Assembly (NCBI RefSeq): GCF_001696615.3
Contig: NZ_CP032279.1
Location: forward strand, 806,001-870,000
Origin: Acinetobacter sp. WCHAc010034
GTDB lineage: Bacteria; Pseudomonadota; Gammaproteobacteria; Pseudomonadales; Moraxellaceae
DNA length: 64,000 nt
Direction of reading: 5' to 3'
Part shown: piece by piece, positions 40,393-52,931 of the stretch
Position numbering within the stretch: position 1 is the stretch's first letter
Layout of the letters: each line of letters opens with the position of its first letter
Notes under the pieces: model-generated
Databases searched by the model: none
The model's input: only the letters and a program-made list of their open reading frames with translations
What the model was told of the DNA's origin: nothing
Made by a program: the position numbers and the translations under genes

Positions 40393-40654
40393 GGCAGAGC
40401 GGCCTTGCAGTAAATTGAAGCCGTTTCAATTGGTTGGCTCATTAAGCGTGGCGGCGGTTTTCAGCTTCGGCTGATTGCGCCGCCATGCTTCTATTTTTGT
40501 TCCATTCAGGTGAAGCAGCTGCCGCTGCTGTGTTTAGATGAGTCATCACCATGAATCAGCCTGTGTTAAACCTAAAATCGCCAAGGCTCACTCTGCAGCC
40601 TGCAGACCTGTATAATACGCCATTGATTCTTGTGACCCATGAAAATTGATTAAA

Positions 40655-41206
40655 ATGAATGAAAAAGAACTCAGCAAATATTTAAGCTATATTTTAAGAC
40701 ACAAGCCCGAAGAAATTGGCCTTGAATTAGATTCTGAAGGCTGGGGAAATATTGCTGAATTAATCAAGAAATCTCAACCGGTTAATCATGCGCCTCTAAG
40801 TTGGGCAGCCATTCAAGCTGCCGTAACAAATAGCGATAAAAAACGCTTTCAAATTTCTGATGACGGTTTAAAAATCCGAGCTGTACAAGGCCACTCAACC
40901 GCAGCTGTCAATCTTAGTTTTGCAGAAAAAGCGCCTCCTGCTTTTTTATATCACGGAACAGCCCTGCGCTTTATAGAGTCGATAAAAGCGCAAGGCTTAT
41001 TATCCCAAGAACGGCAGTATGTTCATTTAACTGAAGATCAGCAAACAGCAGAGTCTGTCGGTTCGCGTTATGGAAAAGTAAAAATTATCATCATAGATGC
41101 TTTAAAAATGCATAATGAAGGGTTCAAATTCTATCAAGCCGAAAATAATGTTTGGCTGGTAAACTCTGTTCCAGTACGGTACACAGACCTGGGGGATGCT
41201 GAATAG
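40655..41206 (+). CDS. kptA: Probable RNA 2'-phosphotransferase
   Basis: It is a Tpt1/KptA-type enzyme that removes an internal 2'-phosphate from RNA using NAD+. The 183-aa product has the N-terminal SYILRHKPEEIGLELDSEGW motif, the NAD-domain YHGTALRFIESIKAQGL, HLTEDQQTAESVGSRYGK, and VNSVPVRYTDL near the end. ATG at 40655 (MNEKELSKYL) is preferred over TTG 40646. In bacteria lacking 2'-phosphate-leaving tRNA splicing the substrate is unknown. Codons are more AT-rich than in the neighbours, hinting at acquisition. Confidence 0.92.
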   Translation: MNEKELSKYLSYILRHKPEEIGLELDSEGWGNIAELIKKSQPVNHAPLSWAAIQAAVTNSDKKRFQISDDGLKIRAVQGHSTAAVNLSFAEKAPPAFLYHGTALRFIESIKAQGLLSQERQYVHLTEDQQTAESVGSRYGKVKIIIIDALKMHNEGFKFYQAENNVWLVNSVPVRYTDLGDAE

Positions 41207-41292: not shown

Positions 41293-42072
41293 TCAGCTAT
41301 GAGCAAGGTAGCGTGTTAAAGCCTGCGCTGTTTCTTTCAGCGCTTTAACCCGCGCATTTTCAAGATCAATAGGCAATTGTGATTCGCTGCCTAAGGCAGC
41401 TATGCAGAATTCAATTTCACCCTGCGCATTAAACACAGGCGCACAAACTGCATTCACGCCAACCAGCATATCGCCGGAAACGGTCGCTATGCCCTGTTCA
41501 ATGAAGCTCTGCTTCATTTGCAGAAATTCAGCCCAATTGGCCGGATAAACCGGCTGCTGCTGCAATTGCTTCCGCTGCCATTCCTGTTCCAGTAGCGGCC
41601 GCACAATATCTTCAGCCATAAAGGCAGCATAAGCGCGGCCTGTTGCCGAATTCAGCAGCGGCATAATTGACCCGACTCTGGTAATGACTGAAACAGCTTG
41701 ATTCGGTTCAATCCACTGCACAATTAAAGGCCCTTGCGAAGTCCATTTGCTGATCTGCAGCCCGCAGTCAATTTTACGGTGCAATTCATTGATCATCGGC
41801 TGCGCGGCTTGGATCGCATCGGTGCGCTGTATGCAGCTTAACCCCAATCTCCATGCCTGATCCCCCAGATCATAGCGCCCATCATCAATCTGCTTGGCAT
41901 AATTCATGCGTACCAAACTCACCGCATAGCGGTGAACTTTTGCCGGATGCATTGACAACTTTTCGGCAAGCTCCTTCAGCATCATCGGTTTACGGCTGGC
42001 AATTAGCGCATCCAGTACGGTTAACCCCACTTCTAATGACTGAACTCCCGCTTGTATTTTTTCTTCTGACAT
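41293..42072 (-). CDS. IclR-family regulator of the tyrosine catabolic cluster
   Basis: The 259-aa protein has a winged HTH at the N-terminus (LTVLDALIASRKPMMLKELAEKLSMHPAKVHRYAVSLVR). An IclR effector domain follows (MPLLNSATGRAYAAFMAE and a later SGDMLVGVNAVCAPVFN). It is divergent from fahA. Tandem palindromes in that gap recur ahead of hpd, so I infer it binds both. The effector is likely homogentisate or another tyrosine breakdown product. Confidence 0.9.
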   Translation of the reverse strand: MSEEKIQAGVQSLEVGLTVLDALIASRKPMMLKELAEKLSMHPAKVHRYAVSLVRMNYAKQIDDGRYDLGDQAWRLGLSCIQRTDAIQAAQPMINELHRKIDCGLQISKWTSQGPLIVQWIEPNQAVSVITRVGSIMPLLNSATGRAYAAFMAEDIVRPLLEQEWQRKQLQQQPVYPANWAEFLQMKQSFIEQGIATVSGDMLVGVNAVCAPVFNAQGEIEFCIAALGSESQLPIDLENARVKALKETAQALTRYLAHS

Positions 42073-42238: not shown

Positions 42239-42318
42239 ATTTAAAATAAGTATGATTAAATCAATCGAAAAAATCCAGATTATTAAAATTGCCTTACTTC
42301 ACGACAAGGAAGACTGAA

Positions 42319-43635
42319 ATGACAAGCCAATTGAAATCATTTATTGAGGTTGCGCAAGACTCGGATTTTCCAATCCAGAACTTGCCTTACGGCATATTCA
42401 GCGAAACGGCTGGCGGCATGCGCCGTTCAGGCGCAGCGCTTGGCGAATGGGTAATTGACCTTGCTGCCCTTGAAGCGCATGGATTCCTGCAAATCCATCC
42501 GGGTGAATTGATTTTCAGCCAGCCAACGCTGAATAAATTTATTGATTCAGGCCAAGAACACTGGGCTAAAATCCGCGCTGAATTGCAGCATTTATTATCT
42601 GCCGATAACCCCACGCTGCGTGACAACCATGAATTGCGCAGTCAGGTCTTCTTTAAACAGGCAGATGTTAGCCTGCACTTGCCTGTCCATATTTCAGGCT
42701 ATACCGATTTTTATTCTTCTAAAGAGCATGCCACCAATGTCGGCTGCATGTTCCGCGACCCTAAAAATGCCTTATTAGCCAACTGGTCTGAACTGCCTGT
42801 TGGCTATAACGGCCGCGCCAGCTCAGTCATTGTCAGCGGCACAGACGTGGTGCGCCCTTCCGGCCAAATCAAGCTGCCTGCTGAAGAGCGTCCAATTTTC
42901 TCAGCCTCCCACAAGCTTGATTTCGAACTTGAAACCGGCTTTATTGTCGGCAAAGCCAATACATTAGGCGAACCGGTCGCAATTGAAAATGCCTGGGATC
43001 ACATCTTCGGCATGGTATTGCTGAATGACTGGTCCGCGCGCGATTTGCAGCAATGGGAATACGTGCCTTTAGGCCCATTCAACGCCAAAACCTTTGCCTC
43101 CTCCATTTCTCCATGGATTGTGACCATGGCAGCGCTTGAACCGTTTAAAACCAGTTCTCCGGTTCAGGAGCCTCAGCCGCTCGCCTATTTGCGCGAAGAC
43201 CATTCCAGCAACAGCTATGACATTCATCTTTCTGTCGAAATTCAGGCCGAAGGCAGTGAGCAGGCAGATGTGATCAGCCAAACCAATTTTAAATATATGT
43301 ACTGGTCTATGGCGCAGCAGCTCACCCATCACACCATTGCAGGATGCAATCTGCAAGTTGGCGATCTGATGGGTTCGGGCACAATTTCCGGCCCTGCGCC
43401 TGAATCTTACGGTTCACTGCTCGAAATTACCTGGAATAGCGCCAAGCCATTGCCCCTTAGCAATGGCGAACAGCGCAGCTTTATGCAGGACGGCGATACC
43501 TTAACTATGAAAGGCTATTGTGAAAAAGACGGCCTGCGCATTGGCTTTGGCGAAGTATCTGGCAAAGTGCTGCCTGCTGTTCAGTTTGACTTCGCTACGG
43601 ATCATACCGGGGAGAAACTCAGTGAGGCTGTATAG
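42319..43635 (+). CDS. fahA: Fumarylacetoacetase
   Basis: It hydrolyses fumarylacetoacetate to fumarate and acetoacetate, ending tyrosine ring degradation. The 438-aa product resembles FAH. YTDFYSSKEHATNVGCMFR carries the metal-site Asp. ELETGFIVGK supplies a metal Glu, and LLNDWSARDLQQWEYVPLGPF holds further ligands. GDLMGSGTISGP follows. ATG at 42319 is preceded by AAGGAAG. It is first in fahA-maiA-VOC-scoAB and overlaps maiA by 14 bp. Confidence 0.95.
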   Translation: MTSQLKSFIEVAQDSDFPIQNLPYGIFSETAGGMRRSGAALGEWVIDLAALEAHGFLQIHPGELIFSQPTLNKFIDSGQEHWAKIRAELQHLLSADNPTLRDNHELRSQVFFKQADVSLHLPVHISGYTDFYSSKEHATNVGCMFRDPKNALLANWSELPVGYNGRASSVIVSGTDVVRPSGQIKLPAEERPIFSASHKLDFELETGFIVGKANTLGEPVAIENAWDHIFGMVLLNDWSARDLQQWEYVPLGPFNAKTFASSISPWIVTMAALEPFKTSSPVQEPQPLAYLREDHSSNSYDIHLSVEIQAEGSEQADVISQTNFKYMYWSMAQQLTHHTIAGCNLQVGDLMGSGTISGPAPESYGSLLEITWNSAKPLPLSNGEQRSFMQDGDTLTMKGYCEKDGLRIGFGEVSGKVLPAVQFDFATDHTGEKLSEAV

Positions 43636-44272
43636 CTACTTCCGCAGTTCTGCGGCGTACCGTGTGCGCATCGCCCTGAATTTAAAAAAACTCGAAGCTG
43701 AAGTTATTCCGATTCATTTGCTGAAAAATGGCGGTGAGCAGCATAGCGCTGCCTACCGTCAAATTAACCCAAGTGAATTGGTCCCGGCTTTGGTAGAAGC
43801 TGATGCTGAACAGAGTTTTGCCCTGACGCAATCGTTAAGCATTTTAGAATATTTAGATGAAAAGTTTACCGATACAGCATTGCTTCCCAAGGATATCCAG
43901 CAGCGCGCCCTGATTCGCGCCTTTAGCCAAAGCATTGCCTGCGACATTCACCCATTAAACAACTTACGGGTTTTGCAGTATTTAAGCGCTGCGCTGGAGG
44001 TTTCCGATGAGCAGAAAGCAGCCTGGTATGCGCACTGGGTTGAAGCGGGCTTTGCAGGCTTAGAGGCGCAACTGGAAAATTCCAATGGCCAGTTCTGCTT
44101 CGACAGCAGCGCAAGCTTTGCCGACTGCTGCCTGATTCCGCAAGTTTACAATGCATTGCGCTTCAATATTGATTTATCGGCCTACCCGAAAATTCAATCC
44201 ATTTATGCCCATTGCAATACGCTGCCTGCATTCCAGAAGGCTGCGCCTGAAGCGCAGGCCGATGCAGCCTGA
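43622..44272 (+). CDS. maiA: Maleylacetoacetate isomerase
   Basis: It is a zeta-class glutathione transferase isomerising maleylacetoacetate to fumarylacetoacetate. The 216-aa product has the N-terminal YSYFRSSAAYRVRIALNLK (glutathione-site Ser), INPSELVPALVE and LTQSLSILEYLDE. The start is GTG at 43622 (reading MRLYSYF) with GGGGAG eight bases upstream. The longer frame runs inside fahA and was rejected. It overlaps fahA, so the two are translationally linked. Confidence 0.95.
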   Translation: MRLYSYFRSSAAYRVRIALNLKKLEAEVIPIHLLKNGGEQHSAAYRQINPSELVPALVEADAEQSFALTQSLSILEYLDEKFTDTALLPKDIQQRALIRAFSQSIACDIHPLNNLRVLQYLSAALEVSDEQKAAWYAHWVEAGFAGLEAQLENSNGQFCFDSSASFADCCLIPQVYNALRFNIDLSAYPKIQSIYAHCNTLPAFQKAAPEAQADAA

Positions 44273-44293: not shown

Positions 44294-44869
44294 ATGGCGA
44301 TTCAAATCGAAAAAATCCACCACGTCGCTTACCGCTGCAAAGATGCCAAAGAAACGGTGGAGTGGTACAAAAAGAACCTCAACATGGATTTCATTTTAGC
44401 TTTTGCTGAAGATCATGTCCCATCAACCAAAGCTTTTGACCCCTATATGCATCTATTTTTAGATGCGGGCAACGGCAATGTTCTGGCTTTTTTTGAACTG
44501 CCGACTCAACCAGAAATGGGCCGCGATGAAAACACGCCGAAGTGGGTGCAGCACATTGCGCTTAAAGTGAAAGACCGCGCTGCCCTGCTGGAAGCAAAAG
44601 CGCATTTGGAAGCCAACGGCAACAATGTCTTAGGCGTGACCAATCACGGAATTTTCCATTCCATTTACTTCTTTGACCCAAATGGCCACCGTCTGGAATT
44701 GGCCTATGACGATGAAGCCGCCCCGGCCAAAATTGCCATGATTACCGAAGCCATGAAGCATGAAATGCTGGAGCAATGGTCACAAACCAAGCGCGCGCCC
44801 TCCCACACGCATTTCCTGCATGCGGCTGAACTGGACCAGCATGCCGGCGCGGCAAAGATAGGCGCTTAA
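44294..44869 (+). CDS. VOC-fold metalloprotein, candidate homogentisate ring-cleavage enzyme
   Basis: The 191-aa protein has two beta-alpha-beta-beta-beta units. Possible metal ligands are His10 (IHHVAYRC), Glu68 (LAFFEL), His87 (WVQHIALKV) and Glu135 (GHRLELAY). This set matches glyoxalase I, and contains the His-His-Glu triad of type I extradiol and hydroquinone dioxygenases. It lies between maiA and scoA in the tyrosine operon, where homogentisate 1,2-dioxygenase would be expected, and no HmgA-type gene is present here. The fold is certain. The reaction is inferred from the gap in the pathway. AAGGA precedes its ATG. Confidence 0.85.
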   Translation: MAIQIEKIHHVAYRCKDAKETVEWYKKNLNMDFILAFAEDHVPSTKAFDPYMHLFLDAGNGNVLAFFELPTQPEMGRDENTPKWVQHIALKVKDRAALLEAKAHLEANGNNVLGVTNHGIFHSIYFFDPNGHRLELAYDDEAAPAKIAMITEAMKHEMLEQWSQTKRAPSHTHFLHAAELDQHAGAAKIGA

Positions 44870-44900: not shown

Positions 44901-45602
44901 ATGAATAAAATTTTTGCAAGCGCGGATATGGCCTTGGCGGATATCGCGGCGGACAATCAAACGCTGGCGATTGGCGGTTTTGGCCTATGCGGGATTCCTG
45001 AGGCGCTCATCGAAGCGCTGAAAAATACCGGCGTGAAAGGCTTAACCTGCATTTCCAACAATGCCGGAGTCGATGATTTCGGTTTGGGCAAGCTGCTGCA
45101 AACCCGGCAGATCAAAAAAATGATTTCATCTTATGTCGGTGAAAATAAAGAATTTGAACGCCAGTATTTAAACGGCGAGCTGGAAGTCGAACTCACCCCG
45201 CAGGGCACACTGGCGGAAAAGCTGCGCTCAGGCGGCGCAGGCATCCCGGCTTTCTTTACTCAAACCGGCGTCGGCACATTGATTGCTGAAGGCAAAGAAG
45301 TGCGTGAATTTGACGGCAAGGAATACATTCTGGAGCCGTCACTCACGGCAGATATTGCATTAGTCAAAGCCTATAAGGCGGACAAAGCCGGCAATTTGGT
45401 CTTCCGCAAAACTGCGCGCAACTTTAACCCTGAATGCGCCATGGCGGGCAAAATTACCGTTGCGGAAGTTGAGCAGATTGTAGAGCTTGGCGAGATTGAT
45501 CCGGATGATATCCATTTGCCGGGCATTTATGTCAGCCGCATCGTGGTGAATGCTTCGCCTGAAAAACGCATCGAACAAATGACTTTAAAGGCGGAGGCAT
45601 AA
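44901..45602 (+). CDS. scoA: 3-oxoacid CoA-transferase subunit A
   Basis: With ScoB it moves CoA from succinyl-CoA to acetoacetate. The 233-aa product carries [17 protein letters not shown] and the [23 protein letters not shown] motif of family I CoA-transferases. Its partner follows after 3 bp. Acetoacetate released by FahA is the evident substrate in this operon. Confidence 0.94.
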
Positions 45603-45605
45603 AGC

Positions 45606-46262
45606 ATGGCCTGGACACGCAATGAAATGGCGCAGCGCGCCGCCTTTGAACTGGAGGACGGCTTCTATGTCAATTTAGGCATTGGGCTGCCCACGCTGGT
45701 CGCAAACTATATTCCTGAACATATCAGCGTCTGGCTGCAGTCGGAAAATGGCTTGCTGGGCATTGATGAATTCCCCACCGCTGAAACTGTCGATGCCGAC
45801 CTGATTAATGCCGGCAAACAAACGGTCACTGCCCGCAAAGGCGCTGCATTTTTTTCCAGCGCAGAATCTTTCGCCATGATCCGCGGCGGCCATGTCAACA
45901 TTGCGATTTTAGGCGCAATGGAAGTATCGCAAACGGGCGACTTGGCGAACTGGATGATTCCGGGCAAGAAAGTCAAAGGCATGGGCGGCGCCATGGACTT
46001 GGTCGCAGGCGTACAGAAGGTTGTGGTGCTGATGGAGCATTGCGCCAAAGACGGCAGCCCTAAAATTGTCAGCCAATGCACCCTTCCCTTAACGGGAAAA
46101 GCTGCCGTAAACCGCATCATCACTGACTTAGGCGTGATGGATGTGACCGCGGAAGGCGTGAAATTGATTGAACTGGCAAAAGGCGTCAGCCTTGAGCAAA
46201 TTCGAACAGCGACGGGCACAGCTTTAATTACCGCAGGCTTTGAAGCAGCTTTAGCCTCATGA
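45606..46262 (+). CDS. scoB: 3-oxoacid CoA-transferase subunit B
   Basis: The 218-aa subunit carries [15 protein letters not shown] and the active-site Glu in [39 protein letters not shown] is also typical. Its ribosome-binding site (GGAGG) lies within the end of scoA. It is the last gene of the first tyrosine transcription unit. The next genes start after a 270-bp promoter region. Confidence 0.94.
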
Positions 46263-46532: not shown

Positions 46533-47594
46533 ATGAATGAGCTAGCCAACCCTTTGGAACTCTGCGGATTTGAGTTTATTGAATTTGTAGCTAAAGACAA
46601 GGAACTGGATGAAATTTTTCAAACGATAGGTTTCAGCAAAGTCGCCAAGCATAAATCCAAAAATGTGTATTTATGGCGCCAAGGCAATATTAATATTATT
46701 CTCAATTATCAGCCTGAATCCGCAGCCGCTTATTTTTTCAAAGAGCACGGCCCTTCCGCATGCGCAATGGGCTTTAGAACCAAAGATGCAGCCAAGGCAT
46801 TTCATAAAGCGGTTGAATTGGGCGCAGAGCCTATTTACTCAAAAATCGGCCCTATGGAATTGAACATTCCTGCAATTAAAGGCATTGGCGGATCGCCGAT
46901 TTACTTGGTCGACCGCGACATTTACCAAAGTGATTTCATTTTCTTTGATGATGCGCCTGCGCATCCAGCCGGAACTGGCTTAAAGGAAATCGACCACTTG
47001 ACGCATAATGTCTACAGAGGGCGCATGCAGTATTGGGCAGACTTCTATGAAAAGATTTTCAATTTCCAGGAGATCCGCTATTTTGACATTAAGGGTGAAT
47101 ATACCGGCTTAACCTCAAAAGCCTTAACCGCGCCGGATGGCAAAATCCGCATTCCGCTGAATGAAGACTCAGAAAAAGGTAATGGTCAAATTGCCGAATT
47201 CCTAAACGATTTCAATGGTGAAGGCATCCAGCACATTGCATTCATTACCGATGACCTTATCGGCACATGGGATAAGCTGAAAGCGCTGGGCGCCAAATTT
47301 ATGACGCCGCCGCCGAACACCTATTATGAAATGCTTTCAGAGCGCCTGCCCGGCCACGGCGAACCGACCGAAGAGCTGCAGAAGCGCGGCATTTTATTAG
47401 ACGGCAATACACAAAATGAAGACAAGCGCTTGTTGCTGCAGATTTTTTCAGAAAATATGCTCGGCCCTGTATTCTTTGAATTCATTCAGCGCAAGGATGA
47501 TGACGGCTTTGGCGAAGGAAACTTTAAAGCCCTATTTGAATCGATAGAGCGCGATCAAATTAAGCGCGGTGTTCTGAATATTTCAAATGCCTGA
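46533..47594 (+). CDS. hpd: 4-hydroxyphenylpyruvate dioxygenase
   Basis: It converts 4-hydroxyphenylpyruvate to homogentisate. The 353-aa two-module VOC protein has iron ligands His155 (DHLTHNV), His234 (GIQHIAF) and Glu316 (FFEFIQR). These lie exactly six residues earlier than in the well-studied P. fluorescens enzyme. The C-terminal [18 protein letters not shown] is the conserved gate helix. ATG follows GAGG. It starts the second tyrosine unit, hpd-aroP-tyrB. Confidence 0.97.
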
Positions 47595-47771: not shown

Positions 47772-49172
47772 ATGCAGCAAATTGAACAAGGAAACCTCAA
47801 GAAAGGTTTAAGCAACCGCCATATCCAGCTGATTGCGCTGGGCGGCTCGATCGGCACAGGGCTGTTTCTCGGCATTGCGCAGACCATCAAACTCGCAGGC
47901 CCGTCTGTAATTCTCGGCTACGCCATTGCAGGGCTGATTGCTTTCTTAATGATGCGCCAATTAGGCGAAATGATTGTTGAAGAGCCTGTCAGCGGCTCAT
48001 TCAGCCATTTTGCCTACAAATATTGGAGCAAATTTGCAGGCTTCATGTCCGGCTGGAATTACTGGGTATTAAACATTCTGGTCTGCATGGCGGAATTAAG
48101 CGCCATCGGCTTGTATATTCACTATTGGTGGCCCGAAATTCCAACCTGGGTTTCAGCATTGGGCTTTTTCATTTTCATTAACGTCATCAACCTTTTGCAT
48201 GTAAAGCTGTTTGGTGAAATGGAATTTTGGCTCGCAATCATTAAAGTGCTGGCGATTATTGCCATGATTGCATTTGGCAGCTATTTATTGGCGAGCGGCA
48301 GCGGCGGTTCACAATCCAATATCCAAAACTTATGGGAATTAGGCGGGTTTTTTCCTAATGGCGTAATGGGCCTGGTCATGGCGATGGCAATGATCATGTT
48401 TGCTTTTGGCGGGATTGAACTGGTCGGCATCGCCGCCGCAGAAACCGATAATCCGCAGAAAACGCTGCCGAAAGCGATTAATCAGATTGTCTACCGCGTC
48501 TTATTATTCTACATCCTCAGCCTGGTGGTTATTTTATCGCTCTATCCATGGAATCAAATGGCGCAAGGCGGAAGCCCTTTCGTGCTTATTTTTGATTCTT
48601 TAGGAAGCCAAACCGTTGCGACTATTCTGAATTTTGTTGTATTGACCGCGGCCGTTTCTGTTTACAACAGCACCAACTACTGCACCAGCCGCATGCTGCT
48701 AGGCCTGGCTCAGCAAGGAAATGCGCCTAAATTTTTAAGCAAGATCAACCCGCGCGGAATTCCGGTAAATGCGGTTATGGTTTCGGCATTCTTTACCCTG
48801 CTATGCGTACTGATCAACTACCTCTTTCCTGAAAAAGCCTTCAGCCTGCTCATGATGCTGGTCGTCGCCGCAATCGTGATTAACTGGGTGGTCATCTCAT
48901 ACACCCATTTGAAATTTAAAAAGCATATGATTCAAATGAACGCTGCAACCCAGTTTCCAAGCATCTTCTACCCTTTCAGCAATTACTTATGCATTGTATT
49001 CATGTGCGGCATTTTAGTCATTATGAGCCAAACTCCCGGCATGCATATCGCTGTATTGATGATTCCGGTCTGGATTTCAGCGCTGCTGATTGCCTATTTC
49101 TTTAAGACTAGAAAAATAAGCGCCAATCAGTTAGTTTCAAAAGATAAAATCCGCTCCATACCGAAAGCTTGA
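47772..49172 (+). CDS. aroP: Aromatic amino-acid permease (AroP-like APC transporter)
   Basis: The 466-aa, 12-helix protein has the APC signature NRHIQLIALGGSIGTGLFLGI in TM1. VEEPVSGSFSHFAYKYW and AAAETDNPQKTLPKAINQI are characteristic of AroP/PheP. Placed between hpd and a tyrosine aminotransferase, it almost certainly imports tyrosine or phenylalanine for catabolism. It is a separate paralogue from the CycA-like permease at 20.8 kb. Confidence 0.92.
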   Translation: MQQIEQGNLKKGLSNRHIQLIALGGSIGTGLFLGIAQTIKLAGPSVILGYAIAGLIAFLMMRQLGEMIVEEPVSGSFSHFAYKYWSKFAGFMSGWNYWVLNILVCMAELSAIGLYIHYWWPEIPTWVSALGFFIFINVINLLHVKLFGEMEFWLAIIKVLAIIAMIAFGSYLLASGSGGSQSNIQNLWELGGFFPNGVMGLVMAMAMIMFAFGGIELVGIAAAETDNPQKTLPKAINQIVYRVLLFYILSLVVILSLYPWNQMAQGGSPFVLIFDSLGSQTVATILNFVVLTAAVSVYNSTNYCTSRMLLGLAQQGNAPKFLSKINPRGIPVNAVMVSAFFTLLCVLINYLFPEKAFSLLMMLVVAAIVINWVVISYTHLKFKKHMIQMNAATQFPSIFYPFSNYLCIVFMCGILVIMSQTPGMHIAVLMIPVWISALLIAYFFKTRKISANQLVSKDKIRSIPKA

Positions 49173-49202
49173 TTTAGGCACTATACAACAAAGGATATAT
49201 TG

Positions 49203-50408
49203 ATGTTTCAGCATGTTGACACTTATGCAGGTGATCCGATTCTTTCCTTAATGGAAGAGTTTGGCAAAGATGAACGGACACAGAAAGTCAATTTAAGCAT
49301 TGGGCTTTACTACAATGAAGACAGCATTGTTCCTCAATTAAATGCCGTTAAAGCCGCCTACAAGCAGATTGAGCCGGCCAATGACAAGGTAAAGCTGTAT
49401 CTGCCGATGGACGGCTTAAAGTCTTACAATCAGGCGACGCAGGCTTTGGTTTTAGGGCAAAACAGCGCAGCGCGCCATGCCGGCCGCGCGGTCACCATTC
49501 AGACTTTAGGCGGTTCCGGCGCGCTTAAAGTCGGCGCAGACTTCTTAAAAAAATATTTTCCCGAATCGGATATTTGGGTCAGCCAGCCGACTTGGGAAAA
49601 TCATATTGCCATTTTTAATGGCGCGGGAATCAACTCCCACTTCTACCGCTATTTTGACGCAGCCACCAACGGCGTCGATATTGAAGGCATGCTGCAGGAT
49701 TTAGAACAGCTGCCGGCCAAAGCGGTTGTTCTGCTTCATCCATGCTGCCACAACCCTACAGGCGCAGACTTAACGCCTGATGAATGGGATCAAGTGATTG
49801 CAGTCTTGAAACAGCGCGACCTGATTCCATTCCTGGACATCGCCTATCAAGGCTTTGGCCAAGGCTTGGAGCAAGACGCTTACGCGATTCGCGCTTTAGA
49901 TCAATCAGGCATGAATTTCATTGTCAGCAATTCCTTCTCTAAAATTTTCTCGCTTTACGGCGAGCGGATTGGCGGATTGACCTTTGTCTGTGACGACCAA
50001 GCCACTGCGCAGAAAGTTTTAGGCCAGCTCAAGGCCACGGTACGCCGCATCTATTCCAGCCCGCCGACAACCGGGGCTTTAATTGTAGATCAGGTGTTAA
50101 ATAATGCTGCATTGACTGAAACATGGCAGGCGGAATTGCAGGAAATGCGCGAACGCATTATTCGCATGCGCCAAATTTTAAATGAGAAATTAAGCCATGC
50201 AGTGCCTGAACGCGACTTCAGCTATCTGGTAAAGCAGCAGGGAATGTTCAGCTATACCGGCTTAAGCGCTGAACAGGTTGATATTCTGAAAGATCAGTAT
50301 GCCATTTACCTGCTCCGCAGCGGCCGGATGTGCGCTGCCGGTTTAAATCTGAATAATATTGATTATGTTGCAGATTCAATTGCAGAAGTGATTAAAGCCA
50401 CGGTTTAA
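49203..50408 (+). CDS. tyrB: Aromatic amino-acid aminotransferase
   Basis: It transaminates tyrosine to 4-hydroxyphenylpyruvate. The 401-aa class I PLP enzyme has [36 protein letters not shown] (cofactor Asp/Tyr) and the Schiff-base Lys in [17 protein letters not shown]. The substrate Arg region [11 protein letters not shown] is present. ATG at 49203 follows AAAGGA; TTG 49200 is also in frame. TyrB-type and AspC-type enzymes overlap, and the cluster context sets the aromatic role. A hairpin (50418-50439) follows. Confidence 0.93.
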
Positions 50409-50664: not shown

Positions 50665-51452
50665 GGTGGTGTATCAAAAAGTATGCTAAAAAAAAGCAGG
50701 TTGAATTTTGATAAAATAGAGAAATGCAAATAACTCTAGAAATCAAATGTCCAACCTGCCTCAGTGACAGTATAAAGAAAAATGGCATCAAAGTAGATGG
50801 GAAACAAAACTACCAATGCAAAGACTGCAAACGTCAGTTTATTGGTGACCATGCTCTGAGCTATCTAGGATGTAATTCTGGCATTACTCGTAAAATATTA
50901 CAGTTAATGGTCAGAGGCAGCGGTATACGAGATATCGCTGAAGTTGAGCGCATTAGTATCGGTAAAGTCTTACGGACTTTAACTGAATCGGCCTATCAAA
51001 TTCAGCCTAAACAAAGTCATTATGAATCTCTCGAAGTAGATGAATTCTGGACTTTTGTTGGAAATAAAAATAATAAACAATGGCTTATTTACGCCTACCA
51101 TCGAGAAACAGGTGAGATTGTTGCTTATGTTTGGGGTAAGAGAGATTTAGCTACAGTCCAAAGGTTGAAGACAAAGCTTAAACAATTAGGTATTCACTAC
51201 ACCCGAATTGCAAGTGATCATTGGGACAGTTTCATCACTGCTTTTAAAAACTGCAAGCAAAGTATTGGTAAGTTGTTTACTGTAGGAATTGAAGGTAATA
51301 ATTGCAAAATAAGGCATCGAATAAGGCGTGGTTTTAGAAGAAGTTGCAATTTCTCCAAAAAGCTTGAAAACCATTTTAAAGCCTTCGACTTAACCTTCTT
51401 TTACATCAATAATGGCTTCATTTAATGTCAGCATACTTTTTAAAACACCACC
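50665..51452 (+). mobile_element. IS1-family insertion sequence, intact (788 bp)
   Basis: The ends at 50665-50687 and 51430-51452 are 23-bp inverted repeats (20 identical) starting GGTGGTGT. The element is flanked by a perfect 8-bp duplication CAGATCTT (50657-50664 and 51453-51460). One transposase gene fills the element. Intact repeats and duplication point to a recent single insertion, here into the last codons of the DMSP-lyase-like gene. Confidence 0.95.
50724..51425 (+). CDS. IS1-family transposase, single frame
   Basis: The 233-aa protein combines the InsA-like N-terminal zinc finger (CPTCLSDS and CKDCKRQF) and HTH with the InsB-like catalytic domain. The latter includes LEVDEFWTFVGNK, LIYAYHRETGEIVAYVWGKRDLAT, ASDHWDSF and a C-terminal NFSKKLENH. 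Classical IS1 needs a frameshift to join the two; here they are one continuous frame. All parts look intact, so it should be active. Its end overlaps the IS-extended lyase frame by 36 bp tail to tail. Confidence 0.92.
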   Translation: MQITLEIKCPTCLSDSIKKNGIKVDGKQNYQCKDCKRQFIGDHALSYLGCNSGITRKILQLMVRGSGIRDIAEVERISIGKVLRTLTESAYQIQPKQSHYESLEVDEFWTFVGNKNNKQWLIYAYHRETGEIVAYVWGKRDLATVQRLKTKLKQLGIHYTRIASDHWDSFITAFKNCKQSIGKLFTVGIEGNNCKIRHRIRRGFRRSCNFSKKLENHFKAFDLTFFYINNGFI

Positions 51453-52874
51453 CAGATCTTTTTTCAGCTTAAAGTCATGGAAATTGAACCCGTTTTGAAT
51501 AAAGGATTCTTCTTTCTGAGTCGGCAAAGCCTCGGTAAAAAGGATTTTCTTATCAAAAACAGTACGATCACCGAAAGGTGCCCAGCTTCCAGTTAAAGCA
51601 ACCATCGCAGAGCCCTCTTTTAAGCCCAGCATTTCATGATCATAGTACGGGCTATGAAAATATGTATTTCCTGCCTCTGCAATATATTTCTTTTTATTAA
51701 TCTGCCATTCGGTTTTTCCGCCTAAAATATAATAAAACTCAGGCGTCGCGTGGGAATGGGTTACATATTTACCTCTTGGCCCAATCGATAAATATGACAG
51801 ATTAAAATCATACAGCTTATTCGGGACAATTGCTCTAAACACCCCTTTCATACGGGCAATCTTATTCCATGTATGAAGTAATTCTTTATTTTTTTCTGCG
51901 TCTGCGGCAAAGAAAAAACCGCTGGAGGCTGTTAATTTACTGAAATCAATCCACTGTCTATCTTTTTCAAAAAGAAATGCTGGCGTGCCTGGATACAAAG
52001 GAAGCCCATGATTCGCCTTTTGCTGCAGGCTGTTCACAGCCAATAAATTCTGCTTATACACATTATCGCCAGCCGCAGTTTTTAGCTCTTTAAAAGGCAA
52101 TACCTCATATTTCTTTCGCACAGCGTCATCCCACTGTTCAAAATTGTCCGGCATATTGGCTTGATAAGGCTGAATGTGAAAATTCGTCCCCGTAAGATAA
52201 TAGCCATAATTCAAATATGCTTCCTGGCCATTCGGCGCCCAGCGGAACCAGAGCAGCTTTAAGGGTTCTTTGGACTTAACTTCAATTCTGCGCAGGCTCA
52301 AAGGCTCGAGTTTAATCGATGTTCCTGTATAGGCATGAACCGTGTTTTCACCGACAGTAATCTCTGCATCGCCCCCCAAAATATGAAAGGCGCCAGGCGC
52401 AGGATCAGAAAATTGCGGAAGGATTCCATTGGGGCCAATTGCAACTTCGATAATTCTCAGGTCAGGATGGTTCATAACCGTTTTCACTTTAACCGTTTTG
52501 GCAAGATCTTGAAGCTGCCGTTGAGAGGATTTATTCAAAGCCGGCCAATCGGCTGGAAATACATCTTCAAGCTTATTCCATGGCTTTTGAGAAGATATAA
52601 ATTCTGGACTAATATTATTCAAACCTTCAAACTTTTTAGGAGAGTTCGGATCGCTTAAATCACGTTTCTTCTTGCTTCTCATCACTTCCAAAGCAGAATC
52701 CGCTCTGTCCATTTTTCTATTTTCTGCATTTTCATAATATATTTCTGGAGAAATATCTTTAAATGAAATATGGCTATAATCATGCTTATGTAAATCACTT
52801 GCAGAATATACATTTGCAGTCAAACTCATTAAAATTGAAATCTTCAAAATTTCACTAATATACTTACGTTTCAT
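51390..52874 (-). CDS. dddY: DddY-like periplasmic DMSP lyase (cupin), C-terminus altered by IS1
   Basis: DddY splits dimethylsulfoniopropionate into dimethyl sulfide and acrylate. The 494-aa protein has a signal peptide (KRKYISEILKISILMSLTANVYSA), a long N-terminal domain and a C-terminal cupin. The metal/catalytic set H373-x-H375-x3-E379-x-Y381...H413 (THSHATPEFYYILGG, then SPYYDHEML) has the spacing of cupin DMSP lyases (DddK/Q/Y). ATG 52874 has AGGTG upstream. The true end was four codons after GATCTG (Asn-Tyr-Arg-Lys, stop at 50642-50644). IS1 replaces them with about 20 IS-encoded residues. Other bicupin enzymes are possible. Confidence 0.68.
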   Translation of the reverse strand: MKRKYISEILKISILMSLTANVYSASDLHKHDYSHISFKDISPEIYYENAENRKMDRADSALEVMRSKKKRDLSDPNSPKKFEGLNNISPEFISSQKPWNKLEDVFPADWPALNKSSQRQLQDLAKTVKVKTVMNHPDLRIIEVAIGPNGILPQFSDPAPGAFHILGGDAEITVGENTVHAYTGTSIKLEPLSLRRIEVKSKEPLKLLWFRWAPNGQEAYLNYGYYLTGTNFHIQPYQANMPDNFEQWDDAVRKKYEVLPFKELKTAAGDNVYKQNLLAVNSLQQKANHGLPLYPGTPAFLFEKDRQWIDFSKLTASSGFFFAADAEKNKELLHTWNKIARMKGVFRAIVPNKLYDFNLSYLSIGPRGKYVTHSHATPEFYYILGGKTEWQINKKKYIAEAGNTYFHSPYYDHEMLGLKEGSAMVALTGSWAPFGDRTVFDKKILFTEALPTQKEESFIQNGFNFHDFKLKKDLGGVLKSMLTLNEAIIDVKEG

Positions 52875-52931
52875 CCTAAAACACCTAAATATCCAAAAAA
52901 TTAAAATAAATGCCATGAAATCTAAAACAGA

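Follow-up and report, generated by a model that had tools for sequence, protein, structure and literature searches.

A small VOC protein as the proposed homogentisate 1,2-dioxygenase of an Acinetobacter tyrosine-catabolism cluster

We propose that a small VOC protein of Acinetobacter sp. WCHAc010034, encoded at 44294..44869 (+ strand) of the 64,000-nucleotide stretch of DNA analysed here (the window), is a single-domain Fe(II) homogentisate 1,2-dioxygenase resembling the type I extradiol enzymes, and we put the probability of this reading at about 85%. Four kinds of evidence carry the proposal: gene order, the finding of no HmgA domain, co-occurrence across genomes and conserved residues. The function is proposed from context, and the metal, substrate, product and residue roles are predictions.

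The gene lies within a run of tyrosine-catabolism genes on the + strand. Upstream are fahA, encoding fumarylacetoacetase (42289..43635; TIGR01266, 583 bits; TTG start at 42289, with an ATG at 42319 also possible), and maiA, encoding maleylacetoacetate isomerase (43622..44272; TIGR01262, 285 bits when scanned from 43625). As read from the sequence, the start of maiA is more likely the GTG at 43622, 14 bp inside fahA, than the mechanical start at 43520. Downstream are scoA and scoB, encoding 3-oxoacid CoA-transferase A and B (44901..45602 and 45606..46262; over the cut-offs of the subfamily models TIGR02429 and TIGR02428), hpd, whose product 4-hydroxyphenylpyruvate dioxygenase makes homogentisate (46533..47594; TIGR01263, 391 bits), an aroP-like aromatic amino-acid permease gene (47772..49172; PF00324, the best NCBIfam model being NF007594/PRK10238, below its cut-off), and tyrB, encoding an aromatic amino-acid transaminase (49200..50408; subfamily model NF006719, 569 bits). 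Thus, the cluster described in an earlier sequence-only reading stands, with curated NCBIfam cut-offs passed by every member except AroP. A divergent IclR-type gene (41293..42072, − strand; PF09339/PF01614) is likely the regulator of the cluster. It is adjoined by a gene for a KptA/Tpt1-type RNA 2'-phosphotransferase (40646-41206; PF01885, 158 bits). At the other end, an IS1-family transposase gene (50724-51425; PF03400) comes after tyrB. On the strand opposite to the transposase gene, a cupin frame with an apparent signal sequence (51393-52916) ends inside that gene, and its last 20-34 residues match several other places of the same genome, as an insertion end would.

The VOC gene begins with ATG, preceded by AAGGA as read from the sequence, and encodes 191 amino acids. 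Its product matches PF00903 (Glyoxalase) with an E-value of 4.6e-14 and 53.3 bits against a cut-off of 20.6, which places it in the VOC superfamily and bears out the earlier description of a 191-aa VOC protein between maiA and scoA. The sole other Pfam match, PF13669, is below its cut-off, and neither HgmA_N nor HgmA_C matches the protein, which is therefore no member of the HmgA family by Pfam. Ten NCBIfam models match it and none reaches its cut-off. The catechol 2,3-dioxygenase model TIGR03211 (29.8 bits against 320.2) and the HpaD model TIGR02295 (29 bits against 321.4) do not admit it as a member. Likewise, the scores for glyoxalase I (lactoylglutathione lyase, TIGR00068; 21.2 bits against 120) and for the fosfomycin thiol transferases FosF (34.6 against 280) and FosB (27.9 against 171) are under the cut-offs, and we rejected membership in these models.

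The sequence-only reading had described homogentisate cleavage as the step without a recognised enzyme, there being no HmgA in the cluster. A genome-wide check for homologues agrees with this. Neither HgmA_N nor HgmA_C has a match in the 13 contigs (3.84 Mb, 100% complete), and on this result we rejected an HmgA elsewhere in the genome; as a control for both searches, Caulobacter vibrioides, among 14 control genomes, was positive in each. The ring could instead be opened by a cupin other than HmgA, such as a protein resembling gentisate 1,2-dioxygenase or the exported cupin of the window (51393-52916). HmgA itself has the cupin fold, gentisate-type cupins are the nearest chemistry to homogentisate cleavage, and the window does hold one cupin gene. 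However, the gentisate model has no match in this genome, and across the genus it gave full-length matches, below the cut-off, in 3 of 30 genomes with fahA and 1 of 30 without, plus one short weak match in a genome lacking fahA. The cupin of the window has a long homologue in only 1 of 57 other genomes searched, and that genome has no fahA over the cut-off. On these grounds we rejected both the gentisate-type cupin and the exported cupin as substitutes for HmgA and give this explanation next to no credence.

Within the genus, the distribution of the VOC gene follows that of fahA. We surveyed 60 genomes, namely this one and 59 others, not all of them complete. Thirty of the 60 carry a VOC orthologue (80-100% identity); FahA passes its cut-off in these 30 and in no others, and HgmA_N has no match in any of the 60. 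In addition, hpd occurs in 28 of the 30 genomes with VOC and fahA and in none of the remaining 30. The two exceptions are G019, a 470-contig assembly, and G051, in which the fahA match is partial. In the 30 short genus loci, which reach 1.5 kb to either side of the VOC gene, FahA and MaiA matches were found in all 30, and FahA, MaiA and VOC were alone, of the cluster genes looked for, in being present throughout. IclR matches occur in 19 of these short loci, and in 14 of 80 named VOC loci drawn from a wider scan.

The same association holds across the phylum. Our sample comprised 397 Pseudomonadota genomes, with 229 bits as the lowest score at which a VOC match was taken for an orthologue. Some VOC match at an E-value of 1e-3 occurs in 137 of these, the orthologue in 48, hpd over its cut-off in 205, and an HgmA_N match, whether of the full-length or the short form, in 170. 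The 205 genomes with hpd divide into 152 with HgmA_N only, 31 with VOC only, 14 with both and 8 with neither. Among genomes negative for HgmA_N, VOC is present in 31 of the 39 with hpd against 2 of the 188 without it (Fisher p about 2e-28, relatedness not corrected for). Thus, genomes that have hpd and lack HmgA mostly carry VOC, and genomes that lack both hpd and HmgA rarely do. The overlap amounts to 14 of the 45 genomes with VOC and hpd, and in two of these (G074 and G215) the HgmA_N match is weak or short. As for the eight genomes with neither HgmA_N nor a VOC orthologue, six hold a paralogue of 40-46% identity and two (L137 and L138) one of about 30%. In L131 and L134 (genomes G114 and G401, with hpd and without HgmA_N) the paralogue, of 48% and 42% identity respectively in a separate search, is directly beside a different FAD monooxygenase of 596-618 aa, and these paralogues are perhaps another subfamily of para-diol dioxygenases. 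No match to hpd, fah or maiA is listed beside the paralogues in the loci fetched (the gene map of L136 is empty, its VOC ORF being in the tree described below).

Gene order places the VOC gene where HmgA would be expected. A genome-wide scan returned at least 583 encoded VOC relatives, of which the 80 named loci were kept; in 69 of these, hpd, FAH of either type or maiA, singly or in combination, lies in the stored flanks. Three genomes from other families of the same order have hpd-VOC-FAH (L031, L032 and L033). The FAH of L032 and L033 is FAA_hydrolase with FAA_hydro_N_2, and that of L031 is a weak BLAST match (E 5e-5). HgmA_N has no match in the genomes of L031 (G060) and L032 (G068) and a weak match with an internal stop in that of L033 (G074). 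Other loci of the order, L041-L043 and L046, have hpd, an HgmA_N protein of 375-417 aa, FAH and maiA in that sequence. The one such protein scanned, from L041 (377 aa), is over the Pfam cut-off and far below that of TIGR01015 (76 bits against 511), which marks it as a short form of HmgA. L147 has hpd-VOC-FAH-maiA in a genome without an HgmA_N match (G339), and VOC holds HmgA's slot between hpd and fah in L031, L032, L033, L147 and L149. Five betaproteobacterial loci (L065, L069, L070, L076 and L092) have hpd-VOC-fahA; HgmA_N is absent from four of the five genomes, and that of L070 has the short form. The order hpd-VOC-fahA also occurs in L067 and L081, in genomes with a full HgmA_N match. In Psychrobacter (L053-L055) the arrangement is fahA-VOC-maiA, with hpd and tyrB nearby. 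The VOC protein and HmgA would have in common a reaction, a place in the pathway and a slot in the order hpd-X-fah-maiA, while differing in size, 191 aa for the VOC protein against 451 aa (L088) or 377 aa (the short form of L041) for HmgA.

We checked the numbering of His9, His10, Glu68, His87, His118, Tyr125 and Glu135 and aligned 43 sequences, the window protein and those from 42 of the 80 named loci (66-90% identity; L107 had no VOC ORF above 60%). His9, His10, His53, His87, His118, His122, Tyr125 and Glu135 are invariant in all 43. In a second alignment of 10 sequences, which included paralogues of 26-37% identity, His10, His87, His118, Tyr125 and Glu135 are again invariant. The sequence-only reading had predicted His10, His87 and Glu135 as metal ligands, and their positions are confirmed; His10 (the His9-His10 pair lies at 44318..44323, + strand) and His87 (44552..44554, +) are proposed Fe(II) ligands. 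Residues 116-135 (44639..44698, +), with His118, Tyr125 and the proposed metal ligand Glu135, match the extradiol ring-cleavage signature (PROSITE PS00082). The signature is present in 43 of 43 aligned sequences, and shuffling the protein 20000 times produced it once. Type I extradiol dioxygenases are defined by a 2-His-1-Glu ligand set together with a His-Tyr-Glu signature, and His10, His87, His118, Tyr125 and Glu135 with the signature give the VOC protein the residues of that class. His118 and Tyr125, as placed by alignment, presumably occupy the extradiol acid-base positions.

Structural relatives point in the same direction, with qualifications. A profile search of the PDB matched the catechol 2,3-dioxygenase 1mpy (E 7.6e-7), and the alignment sets Tyr125, Glu135 and His118 of the VOC protein on Tyr255, Glu265 and His246. 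The type I extradiol catechol dioxygenases, with 1mpy as the example, thus belong to the same VOC family and align at the signature Tyr and Glu and at His118. The VOC protein differs in having one VOC domain, against a chain of 307 aa in 1mpy, and in that its substrate would be a para-diol; no residue of it aligns with His199 of XylE. The search also returned 1zsw, a 'glyoxalase family protein' (3.7e-12), FosB chains (from 2e-6) and MhqO (3oaj, 0.004). Because 1zsw and FosB were also matched, similarity to PDB entries is not enough by itself to mark the protein as a dioxygenase. Where the alignments to 1zsw and FosB are shown, they lack an equivalent of His118, which is Arg in 1zsw. PcpA, LinE and MhqO are VOC hydroquinone dioxygenases, of the same fold family, that cleave para-diols. 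PcpA and LinE had been offered as parallels in the sequence-only reading, and they hold up as analogues rather than as detectable kin, since nothing so named is among the matches listed in PDB sequence searches to an E-value of 1. In PcpA, Arg259 occupies the position of His118.

The protein could also be a glyoxalase-, epimerase- or isomerase-like accessory, with a four-ligand site including Glu68, that handles a side product while another enzyme opens the ring. The position of Glu68 would correspond to that of the fourth carboxylate ligand in glyoxalase I, and the residue is Glu in 42 of the 43 close sequences and Asp in the other. Additionally, the solved structure of an orthologue, PDB 9u42 chain A (182 aa; E 1.3e-99 over residues 2-180), was deposited as 'Glyoxalase', a name with nothing of homogentisate in it; a 'glyoxalase family protein' and FosB are among the profile matches; and MaiA belongs, by Pfam, to the glutathione-S-transferase family. 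The extradiol signature residues His118 and Tyr125 are nevertheless invariant, whereas position 68 varies between E, D, Q and Y in the 10 sequences that include distant homologues, and the glyoxalase-like site suggested earlier is weakened accordingly. MaiA already supplies an isomerase, and the constant trio of FahA, MaiA and VOC in the short genus loci also speaks against an accessory. We judge this explanation very improbable and retain the dioxygenase assignment.

Genomes with both enzymes bear on a further alternative, in which the true substrate is a related para-diol, for example a gentisate-like compound or some other substituted hydroquinone produced by a flavin monooxygenase, and homogentisate is cleaved in passing or is no substrate. 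We tested the genomes of 50 of the 80 named VOC loci for HgmA_N and obtained a match in 30, mostly from alphaproteobacteria. In many Rhodobacteraceae and other alphaproteobacteria the gene before VOC encodes a class-A-type flavin monooxygenase (FAD_binding_3), and maiA often comes next; some of these loci have TRAP transport genes and lack hmgA-fahA nearby. One is L085 of R. denitrificans, where VOC occurs with a monooxygenase of the PRK08132 subfamily (740 bits), TRAP-type genes and maiA; the HgmA_N match of that genome lies outside the locus. In R. pomeroyi (L088) the VOC cluster itself holds fahA and a full HmgA (451 aa; TIGR01015, 625 bits, cut-off 511), with a flavin monooxygenase gene before VOC, so the VOC enzyme may serve para-diols in general. 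The order hydroxylase-VOC-isomerase would still point to para-diol ring cleavage. A monooxygenase, a DctP-type TRAP binding protein and VOC are clustered in L085, L077, L091, L071, L105, L109, L090 and L125, which come from alphaproteobacteria and two Vicinamibacteria MAGs; L053 and L063 have a weaker DctP match and no monooxygenase. These clusters are likely an uptake and degradation route for a phenolic acid.

A tree of 115 rows, with long outgroup branches, 49 of 112 inner branches open and many weak forks, contains 47 monooxygenase-linked and 31 hpd-linked copies. Among rows for which both facts are known, HmgA is absent in 22 of 26 hpd-linked and 6 of 25 monooxygenase-linked copies; the genomes of the other 19 monooxygenase-linked rows have HgmA_N, as a different substrate for the VOC protein would allow. 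Those lineages may use the VOC protein on a different substrate, or they may have HmgA as an additional enzyme. Against this alternative are the 31 phylum genomes that have hpd and VOC without an HgmA_N match, the hpd-VOC-fah gene order, and the tree itself, on which copies of the two kinds interleave and at least 7 changes of context are needed, although many of the forks are weak. We read this interleaving as one activity in two settings. An independent-pairs test on the tree gave 2 starred pairs, too few to be informative. Overall, a para-diol other than homogentisate as the true substrate appears unlikely, and homogentisate remains our preferred substrate.

The pigment literature on Acinetobacter can be set beside these results, with the name hmgA seeming to have been put on different genes. 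PMC7646211 reports for A. baumannii AB4353 that an hmgA homologue is missing and that hmgC and hmgR flank a gene whose product has a type I ring-cleaving-dioxygenase domain; its authors regard this as a distant HmgA homologue, probably inactive, that explains the pigment. The genomic place of that gene is that of the VOC gene, and, contrary to their interpretation, our co-occurrence data argue that the VOC family is active. PMC9431530 reports that strain DETAB-R21 makes pyomelanin and carries a transposon in its 'hmgA', for which a 9-mer target site is given, and that a plasmid copy of 'hmgA' abolishes the pyomelanin. In L056, a 20.5-kb locus of a relative labelled A. baumannii, we found a single copy of this 9-mer, which falls early in the VOC gene and outside fahA and maiA; a Markov model predicts about 2 chance copies per 20.5 kb and a probability of 0.07 for the VOC gene. 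In the genus loci L011-L030, which reach only 1.5 kb from VOC, it lies in VOC in 10 of 20, in fahA in 4 of 20 and in maiA in none of 20. Its position inside the VOC gene of L056 suggests that the interrupted 'hmgA' of DETAB-R21 is probably the VOC gene.

A third source, PMC11945678, gives a 633-bp 'hmgA' reference (NC_016603.1:3098928-3099560) that overlaps hmgB by 14 bp. Its size and overlap are those of maiA, which suggests that this reference is maiA. The same paper describes two pigmented strains that have an insertion upstream of fahA; such an insertion could silence the fahA-maiA-VOC run. PMC5220012 mentions a ring-cleaving dioxygenase and leaves the gene unnamed, and homogentisate is absent from the main text of PMC9007349 (GapMind). 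Among the papers listed in searches of the open-licence PMC literature, none described a VOC-type homogentisate dioxygenase.

In the pathway that we propose, tyrosine would be imported by AroP and transaminated by TyrB, and Hpd would then yield homogentisate. The VOC enzyme would bind homogentisate and O2 at an iron site predicted to be formed by His10, His87 and Glu135, would use His118 and Tyr125 as putative acid-base and hydrogen-bonding residues, and would cleave the substrate to maleylacetoacetate, the step carried out by HmgA elsewhere. This product would be isomerised by MaiA and split by FahA, and the acetoacetate would be activated by ScoAB.

More broadly, we consider it probable that these proteins form a second class of homogentisate 1,2-dioxygenase, unrelated to the first and consisting of a single VOC domain of ~180-190 aa, that occurs widely in Proteobacteria as well as in MAGs of Holophagaceae and Vicinamibacteria, replaces HmgA in many lineages, serves further para-diol pathways together with a flavin monooxygenase in roseobacters, and has one solved structure filed as a glyoxalase. 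The reaction and the fold family are each known; their combination is without a report in the open-licence PMC literature searched. If true, this would be a clean non-orthologous displacement, of a cupin by a VOC protein, at one step. A missing step of tyrosine catabolism would be filled in the 30 of 60 genus genomes that have fahA and in 31 of the 39 genomes with hpd and without HgmA_N in the 397-genome sample. Such a displacement would also allow the Acinetobacter pyomelanin literature to be re-read, and a deposited structure named only Glyoxalase would gain a meaning.
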